Of a DNA stretch of 64,000 bases, positions 5,500-7,978 are shown piece by piece. The DNA is taken from NCBI GenBank assembly GCA_026417555.1, contig JAOADA010000004.1, positions 62,001 through 126,000 on the forward strand, in the 5' to 3' direction. Each line of letters opens with the position of its first letter. Positions within the stretch are counted from its first letter, which is position 1. The DNA comes from Brevinematales bacterium. GTDB taxonomy: Bacteria; Spirochaetota; Brevinematia; Brevinematales; Thermospiraceae. The position numbers were made by a program, and so were the translations under genes. Under the pieces are notes generated by a model. The model saw only the letters and a list, made by a program, of their open reading frames with translations, was not told the DNA's origin and made no database searches.

Positions 5500-5805
5500 T
5501 TATGGTTTCTGGGGTGGGTGAGGGTTTCCCCATACTCCATCGGAGGCGAAACGTTTCATCCAGAATTCTTTGGGACCAAGGGTTTCCAGATCCTCAAGAG
5601 AGACACGATAGACTTTGAAAGCCTCGAAAAGCGTACGATAAGCTGCAATAACCTCTCGTGTTTTTTCTTCACACCCGAGAGCGACTTCTTGGCAATGGTC
5701 AGGGTGATAGCGTTTGAGAAGGGTTCTGTAGGCCTGTTGAAGCTCTTCGAGGGAGAAGGTTTCCGAAAGCCCAAGCACAGAAGCGGCTTCTTTGAGTGAG
5801 GCCAT
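5500..5805 (-). CDS. J-domain protein, short
   Basis: A 101-aa protein made almost only of a J-domain: helix II ELQQAYRTLLKRY, the invariant HPD tripeptide at residues 34-36 (YHPDH), and helix III TREVIAAYRTLFEAF. Such proteins stimulate the ATPase of a DnaK partner; no Gly/Phe or zinc-finger region is present, so it is not DnaJ itself. The start ATG at 5805 lies one base after the TGA of the TrpR-family gene, with AAAAGGAGAT inside the end of that gene, so translation should be coupled. The C-terminal 30 residues have no recognised motif and may target a client. Confidence 0.8.
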   Translation of the reverse strand: MASLKEAASVLGLSETFSLEELQQAYRTLLKRYHPDHCQEVALGCEEKTREVIAAYRTLFEAFKVYRVSLEDLETLGPKEFWMKRFASDGVWGNPHPPQKP

Positions 5806-5806
5806 G

Positions 5807-6067
5807 TCAATCTCCTTTTTTGAGGGTCTGGGCACAGAAGGATGAGGGATTTTTGAGGATTCTGGCACCTCGTGTGATCTTGCAGAGGCTAATATGAAGT
5901 TCTGAAGCCACGGCACGTTGAGATTTGCCTTCGGCGAGTCTCTTGAGGAGCTCCCACCGGAGAGTGAGGTCTTTTTTTTCAGCAGGCGTGAGGATCTCGG
6001 ATAAGAATTGGTGCATGATCTCCGGATCAGTAATGTCACAGAGGATATGGATCAGATCTTTTTCCAT
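5807..6067 (-). CDS. TrpR-family transcriptional regulator (probably leaderless)
   Basis: An 86-aa helical protein with a Trp-repressor helix-turn-helix: LTPAEKKDLTLRWELL, then SQRAVASELHISLCKITRGARILK, close to the TrpR reading-head pattern. The Arg positions that hold the ligand carboxylate in E. coli TrpR (in LRW and TRG) are kept, but the Ser88 position appears to be Ile, so tryptophan binding is uncertain. Two ATGs exist, at 6073 and 6067. The promoter -10 box ends at 6074, so RNA should begin near 6067 and the second ATG is preferred. There is no Shine-Dalgarno sequence. The first gene of a two-gene operon with the J-domain protein. Confidence 0.75.
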   Translation of the reverse strand: MEKDLIHILCDITDPEIMHQFLSEILTPAEKKDLTLRWELLKRLAEGKSQRAVASELHISLCKITRGARILKNPSSFCAQTLKKGD

Positions 6068-6073
6068 ATCCAT

Positions 6074-6102
6074 ATTGTAGGGGAAGGGGGTATTTTTGTC
6101 AA
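6074..6102 (-). promoter_or_regulatory. Promoter of the trpR-like / J-domain operon
   Basis: On the minus strand TTGACA (6102-6097), 17 bases, TACAAT (6079-6074). The -10 box directly abuts ATG at 6073 and sits six bases before ATG at 6067, predicting a leaderless transcript. Confidence 0.8.
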
Positions 6103-6122
6103 GCGGGGGAAACAGGAAACTC

Positions 6123-6151
6123 TTGCAAAAAACTATCGTTGGCTTTACAAT
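6123..6151 (+). promoter_or_regulatory. Promoter of aspS
   Basis: TTGCAA (6123-6128), 17-base spacer, TACAAT (6146-6151). Start of transcription near 6158, then GGAGG at about 6178 and ATG at 6188. It is divergent from, and only 20 bases away from, the trpR-like promoter. Confidence 0.75.
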
Positions 6152-6187: not shown

Positions 6188-7978
6188 ATGATTCGTGTTG
6201 ACCAACAACGGACTCATTTTTGTGGAGAGATTTGCGAGTCTTCTCTTGTCGGAAAACGGGTGACACTGACAGGTTGGGTACAAAATTACCGTGATCATGG
6301 TGGGTTAATGTTTATTGATCTTCGAGACAGGAGTGGCATTGTTCAGCTTGTGTTTGATCCACAGACGAACCCAGCAGCCCACGAGACGGCCAAGAAGGCT
6401 CGTCATGAGGATGTACTTTCAGTGAGTGGGACGGTTCAAAATCGTTCTCAAGAGAATATCAATCCAAAAATCAAAACGGGTGCCTACGAGGTGAAGATAG
6501 ATCGTATCGAATTCCTCAATCGCTCTAAAACTCCCCCTTTCCAAATAGATCAGGAGGAAGTCAGTGAAGAGGTGAGGCTGAAATATCGGTATCTTGATAT
6601 TCGTCGACCTTCGATGTATGATAATCTCTACAAACGTCATAAAATCACACAGACGGTACGCAAATTTTTGGACGAGCATGGATTTCTGGAGGTGGAAACC
6701 CCAATTCTCAACAAATCTACGCCGGAAGGCGCGAGGGATTTTCTTGTTCCTTCTCGACTTTCTCACGGCAAGTTTTATGCGCTTCCTCAGTCACCACAGA
6801 TTTTTAAACAGCTTCTCATGGTTGGGGGGATTGAGAGGTACTACCAGATTGCCCGTTGTTTTCGAGATGAGGATCTCAGGGCTGATCGGCAACCGGAGTT
6901 CACCCAGATAGATGTGGAAATGTCTTTTGTTCGGGAAGAGGATGTTATGAGTCTCATGGAGCAAATGGTGGCGAGAGTGCTTGAGGAAAATTATGGGATT
7001 TCTCTCTCTCTTCCTCTTCCCAAGATGACCTATCAAGAGGCCATGGAAAAATATGGGATTGATCGTCCTGATCTGAGGTTTGGGATGGAACTTGTTGATG
7101 TCACAGACGTAGTAAAGGAGAGTGAGTTCAGTGTTTTTAGAAGTGTTGCAGAAAAGGGAGGGATGATTAAATGTCTCCCTGTTCCTGATGGTGACAGGCT
7201 TTCTCGTAAGGATCTGGATGATCTCATTGCCTTTGTAGGGAAATATGGGGCCAAGGGTATGGCCTGGATGAGGGTAAAAGATGGCAAACTTGAATCCAAT
7301 ATTGTCAAGTATTTCTCTGAGGCTATCCAGAAAAAACTTCTCGAGGTCACCGGAGCGAAGGAAAACTTTACCCTTCTTTTTGTGGGGGATGTGAAGAAAA
7401 AGGTGGTGTATGATAGTATGGCCAACCTTCGTCTTCATCTTGGGGATCGTTTTGGGCTGCGGAAAAAGGAAGACCTCAAGTTTGTGTGGGTGGTTGATTT
7501 TCCACTTTTTGAGTGGAATGAGGAGGAAAATCGCTACGATTCTGTCCATCATCCCTTTACTGCTCCAAAACTTGAGGATATGCCCCTTCTGGAAACAGAT
7601 CCTCTCAAGGTTCGTTCAGATGCATATGACCTTGTGCTTAACGGGATTGAATTAGGGGGGGGATCGATCCGTATTCATGATATGCAGCTCCAAGCAAAGA
7701 TTTTCTCTCTTCTGAAAATTTCTCCGGAAGAGGCAAAGGAGAAGTTTGGGTTTCTTCTGGAAGCCCTTGAGTTTGGGGCTCCTCCCCATGGTGGGCTTGC
7801 TTTTGGGTTGGATCGTATGGTGATGGAGTTTCAGGGGCTTTCTAATATTCGGGATGTGATAGCCTTTCCCAAGACTCAAAAGGGTACGGATCTGATGTGT
7901 GATTCTCCCTCTGAGGTAACCTCAAAACAGCTTGAAGAATTGGGGATCAAGGTAGTGGAATACAGAGCAAATAAATAA
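6188..7978 (+). CDS. aspS: Aspartyl-tRNA synthetase
   Basis: A 596-aa class II synthetase of the long bacterial type. Domains: N-terminal OB anticodon-binding fold (about 15-110, GWVQNYRDHGGLMFIDLRDRSG), then the catalytic domain with motif 1 in EVETPILNKSTPEGARDF, motif 2 CFRDEDLRADRQPEFTQID, a GAD insertion domain (about 285-420), and motif 3 GLAFGLDRMVM near the end. It charges tRNA-Asp; the bacterial GAD-containing form can be discriminating or non-discriminating, which I cannot tell. The ATG at 6188 follows GGAGG; the open frame extends 60 codons upstream but that region holds the promoter. Confidence 0.96.
   Translation: MIRVDQQRTHFCGEICESSLVGKRVTLTGWVQNYRDHGGLMFIDLRDRSGIVQLVFDPQTNPAAHETAKKARHEDVLSVSGTVQNRSQENINPKIKTGAYEVKIDRIEFLNRSKTPPFQIDQEEVSEEVRLKYRYLDIRRPSMYDNLYKRHKITQTVRKFLDEHGFLEVETPILNKSTPEGARDFLVPSRLSHGKFYALPQSPQIFKQLLMVGGIERYYQIARCFRDEDLRADRQPEFTQIDVEMSFVREEDVMSLMEQMVARVLEENYGISLSLPLPKMTYQEAMEKYGIDRPDLRFGMELVDVTDVVKESEFSVFRSVAEKGGMIKCLPVPDGDRLSRKDLDDLIAFVGKYGAKGMAWMRVKDGKLESNIVKYFSEAIQKKLLEVTGAKENFTLLFVGDVKKKVVYDSMANLRLHLGDRFGLRKKEDLKFVWVVDFPLFEWNEEENRYDSVHHPFTAPKLEDMPLLETDPLKVRSDAYDLVLNGIELGGGSIRIHDMQLQAKIFSLLKISPEEAKEKFGFLLEALEFGAPPHGGLAFGLDRMVMEFQGLSNIRDVIAFPKTQKGTDLMCDSPSEVTSKQLEELGIKVVEYRANK

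Follow-up and report, generated by a model that had tools for sequence, protein, structure and literature searches.

The trpR-like gene of this Brevinematales bacterium is predicted to be expressed from a leaderless mRNA. Its own strong sigma-70 promoter would drive transcription from the A of the AUG at position 6067 of the window (the whole stretch of 64,000 nucleotides analysed here), and the ribosome would initiate on the 5'-terminal AUG of an mRNA devoid of leader. The level of TrpR would probably be steady and unregulated, and the protein, together with tryptophan, probably binds a palindrome, GTTTCTA-N4-TAGAAAC, located elsewhere in the genome across the point where trpE transcription would begin. 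Leaderless transcription of trpR is well supported by the arrangement of its promoter in related genomes. We infer where trpR transcription starts, that ribosomes initiate on the terminal AUG, that TrpR binds the palindrome and that it does not regulate its own gene. Taken as a whole, the model of constitutive, leaderless transcription from A6067 and of a tryptophan-bound product acting on the trpE palindrome appears likely to us. The features of the locus are as follows.

6102-6097, minus strand: -35 box TTGACA, identical in both genus relatives.
6079-6074, minus strand: -10 box TACAAT, after a spacer of 17 bases (18 in G002, 17 in G001).
6073-6068, minus strand: six-base discriminator ATGGAT (AAGAGC in G002, AAAGCT in G001).
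6073-6071, minus strand: species-specific ATG inside the discriminator, judged not to be a start.
6067-6065, minus strand: start codon ATG of trpR, with A6067 as predicted transcription start, at +1 relative to the -10 box and at a conserved 6-base distance.
5807-6067, minus strand: trpR-like gene, 86 aa, assigned to the Trp repressor family PF01371 by profile score.
5500-5805, minus strand: DnaJ-domain gene, 101 aa, downstream of trpR, with its own Shine-Dalgarno sequence AAAAAGGAGA.
6123-6151, plus strand: divergent promoter-like site TTGCAA-17-TACAAT from the promoter scan, probably for aspS.
6188-7978, plus strand: aspS, aspartate-tRNA ligase, with a GGAGG Shine-Dalgarno sequence, a leadered contrast to trpR.

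On the minus strand, the window reads TTGACA, 17 bases, TACAAT, ATGGAT and ATGGAAAAAGAT, and a mechanical promoter scan scores 11 box matches out of 12. The sequence thus bears out the initial annotation, which had described these boxes, the end of the -10 box at 6074 and the two ATG codons at 6073 and 6067; the codons at 6067-6065 and 6073-6071 are in the same frame. The absence of a Shine-Dalgarno sequence at trpR was likewise confirmed, the best match there being 3 bases. Nearly all other genes had been said to carry one, in agreement with a match of at least 4 bases in 51 of 57 gene-like ORFs taken from the window by a mechanical procedure, an upper estimate as the choice of starts favoured Shine-Dalgarno sequences. 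The DnaJ-domain gene is probably co-transcribed with trpR, and both relatives have an ORF with a similar start sequence 3' of trpR. An inverted repeat, GGATATGG...CCATATCC, surrounds the trpR start codon (6042-6073, minus strand) in this species only and is absent from the relatives.

The pattern TTGACA-N16-18-TANAAT occurs 64 times in the whole genome to which the window belongs, versus 3 times for the reversed pattern. Downstream of 47 of these 64 strict-pattern promoters, a Shine-Dalgarno sequence and a start codon are found within about 50 bases, and several of the others precede putative tRNA genes, identified as such by appearance only. Hence, the trpR site stands far above chance as a promoter. 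An ATG lies 5-7 bases after the -10 box at 6 of the 64 promoters, at 0-4 bases in 12 and at 8-10 bases in 3; significance from the layout alone was therefore rejected, the 5-7-base distance being not clearly enriched over neighbouring offsets. Because many promoters have an ATG about that near, the trpR layout in one genome alone could be luck, and its significance comes from its conservation in two related genomes. The case against our reading is that the comparison comprises three genus genomes and that the 5-7-base distance also arises by chance at promoters.

These three genomes are that of the window (G000), G001 and G002; a scan of the genome collection found no further member of the genus. 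Both relatives possess trpR (87 and 75% identical to the window copy), and the search for the same layout in related genomes, proposed in the initial annotation, was successful in each. The promoter reads TTGACA-18-TACAAT-AAGAGC-ATGGAAAAG in G002 and TTGACA-17-TACAAT-AAAGCT-ATGGAAAAA in G001, so that in both relatives ATGGAAAA follows six differing bases after TTGACA-17/18-TACAAT. In all three genomes, exactly 6 bases separate TACAAT from the ATG corresponding to 6067, while this hexamer and the greater part of the spacer vary; the boxes are kept as their flanks diverge. Counting from a -10 box that ends at -7, +1 falls on the A of the second ATG, where the initial annotation had expected transcription to begin. 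None of the three genomes has a Shine-Dalgarno sequence before the trpR ATG, the best matches being 3-4 bases without a GGAG-type core. This recurrence of -35 box, -10 box, six bases and ATG in three genomes out of three supports the leaderless mRNA that had been predicted for a TrpR-type regulator.

Start selection by the polymerase can shift by a few bases and the discriminator contains purines, so that a start at one of these would yield a very short leader of 1-5 bases, a near-leaderless mRNA with some other Shine-Dalgarno-independent initiation. However, the base immediately 5' of the ATG is a pyrimidine in all three species, and the A of the ATG, the seventh base after the -10 box, lies at the canonical distance and is the only purine at positions 6-8 in each of them. 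We regard such a short leader as unlikely. A counterpoint to leaderless initiation is that the RNA predicted for this species can pair through its first five bases (AUGGA/UCCAU, -2.8 kcal/mol). Such pairing would be unhelpful to a 5'-terminal AUG; the relatives lack it.

Over codons 1-18 of trpR, the three genomes show 8, 9 and 12 third-position changes versus 1, 2 and 1 second-position changes, and this dominance of third-position substitutions indicates that coding begins at 6067. The TrpR proteins align from this ATG, and the first 17 codons line up with the N-terminal ends of homologues in other families. The initial annotation had also listed the ATG at 6073; we rejected it as a start because it is missing from both relatives and abuts the -10 box, which leaves 6067 as the start. 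The 6073 ATG would also lie outside the predicted RNA. An N-terminal extension upstream of 6067, which had been put forward as evidence against a leaderless mRNA if conserved in homologues, was rejected as well: it has neither a conserved start nor a coding signal, and the protein alignment begins at 6067. The likely start codon of trpR is thereby corrected by two residues.

A second counterpoint concerns an internal ATG at nucleotide 52 (codon 18), preceded by GGAG at three bases in this species and conserved in the genus. Translation from this codon would make the promoter real and the leader an ordinary one of about 51 bases. The Shine-Dalgarno match is, however, of only 3 bases in both relatives, and codons 1-17 evolve as coding sequence in addition to aligning with the homologues mentioned above. 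Loss of the first helix would also take away part of the TrpR dimer fold. We therefore hold an internal start to be very improbable. An equally improbable reading, in which an unrecognised promoter further upstream (possibly of another sigma factor, a type that the scan leaves out) yields a leadered gene without a Shine-Dalgarno sequence and the TTGACA-TACAAT pair plays a minor role or none, is countered by the lack of a sigma-70 site of similar quality in the 300 bases upstream in all three genomes, by the preservation of the boxes but not of their flanks, and by G001, where a different upstream sequence carries a terminator-like GCCGTCC...GGGCGGCTTTTTTT ending directly before the -35 box.

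The product of the gene passes the PF01371 profile (51.7 bits, cut-off 27) and falls below the curated cut-off of the TrpR equivalog TIGR01321 (50.8 bits versus 67.25). Residues T27, R37, R66 and G67 are invariant in the TrpR alignment; we take them to correspond to the tryptophan-pocket residues Thr44, Arg54, Arg84 and Gly85 of E. coli, and their invariance is consistent with tryptophan binding. In G000, G001 and G002, the palindrome GTTTCTA-N4-TAGAAAC comes straight after the -10 box at trpE (L044, L042 and L043, around position 1501), the TrpE of the window's genome scoring 554.6 bits against a curated cut-off of 517.7. In the sister family, trpR precedes a TrpB-like gene (trpB2), and the trpR-trpB2 promoter consists of TATAAT, at once followed by the same palindrome and then by a leader (four loci); a GGAG precedes the trpR ATG in three of the four cases. 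The more distant genome G056 carries the palindrome both at trpR and at a gene that is trpE-like by appearance only. Near trpR of the genus, the palindrome is matched at no more than 9 of its 14 bases in two genomes (G000, G002) and at 8 in G001, and the positions of these matches are unrelated; TrpR autoregulation in the genus was rejected on this ground. We infer that the palindrome is the predicted TrpR operator, that trpE is its target and that trpR of the genus is free of operator control; control of trpE by TrpR is very likely. GTTTCTA-N4-TAGAAAC is thus a probable spirochaete TrpR operator, apparently unlike that of E. coli, as its TTTCTA-N4-TAGAAA core presumably differs from the CTAG-type operator. 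With E. coli TrpR (structures such as 1jhg), the window protein has in common the PF01371 domain, the helix-turn-helix, several tryptophan-pocket residues and a palindrome at trpE; it differs in its score below the TIGR01321 cut-off and in that, within the genus, no operator is seen at the gene encoding it.

Other genes of the genus show related arrangements. In all three genomes, a gene for a calcineurin-like phosphoesterase lacks a Shine-Dalgarno sequence, and exactly 7 bases separate its -10 box from the ATG; it is the second conserved candidate for a leaderless gene. For an ArsR/SmtB-type regulator, likewise a leaderless candidate, TACAAT or TATGAT is followed by TGTATAT and ATG in two genomes, and in G002 a palindrome, ATACAATTGTAT, lies at the -10 box. 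In a gene for a sensor-like membrane protein, the -10 box lies 6 and 7 bases before the ATG in two genomes. The sequence TTGACAGAAATCGATGGAAATGCTACAATATATGATG is identical in three genomes (G000:C29:51017, G001:C1:1262088 and G002:C20:15184) and stands ahead of a Shine-Dalgarno-led start; this site is probably not a leaderless gene. Some strict-pattern matches were rejected as leaderless genes, corresponding to a tRNA, short ORFs or an ATG ahead of a Shine-Dalgarno-led start.

Overall, trpR probably belongs to a small leaderless class, drawn only from matches to the strict promoter pattern and their orthologues, rather than being a lone oddity. More tentatively, and less likely than not, selection may keep a fixed small set of genes (trpR, phosphoesterase, ArsR-type and sensor-like) leaderless in a genome otherwise led by Shine-Dalgarno sequences, trpR having been split from the operator-controlled trpR-trpB2 pair of the sister family type and having exchanged operator control for leaderless, constitutive expression.

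Leaderless repressor mRNAs such as that of lambda cI are classical; cI, too, is a repressor that binds DNA and whose translation begins on an AUG at the 5' end, but it is an unrelated protein encoded by a phage gene. In bacteria, leaderless genes with a TANNNT box some 12 bases ahead of the start codon are widespread without being dominant (PMC3160421). The trpR gene has in common with these TA-led genes (Zheng et al. 2011, PMC3160421) the placement of the -10 box, the lack of a Shine-Dalgarno sequence and the prediction of a leaderless mRNA; that survey is statistical and made per genome, whereas the present case concerns the conservation of one gene, within a small minority in a Shine-Dalgarno-dominated genome. 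Among spirochaetes, Leptospira interrogans commonly makes leaderless mRNAs, the mapped transcription start of about 440 of its genes lying less than 10 bases from the start codon (PMC5243855). Leptospira belongs to another order, and its starts were mapped experimentally, whereas that of trpR is predicted. A literature search of limited coverage turned up no description of a trpR gene that is leaderless. Leaderless genes, including those of spirochaetes, and leaderless repressors are already known; trpR adds a further case and leaves existing knowledge of leaderless translation unchanged. What it offers is a conserved and easily tested candidate for a chromosomal regulator expressed without a leader, in an order of spirochaetes that has received little study, with a probable operator and a probable target named for its product.
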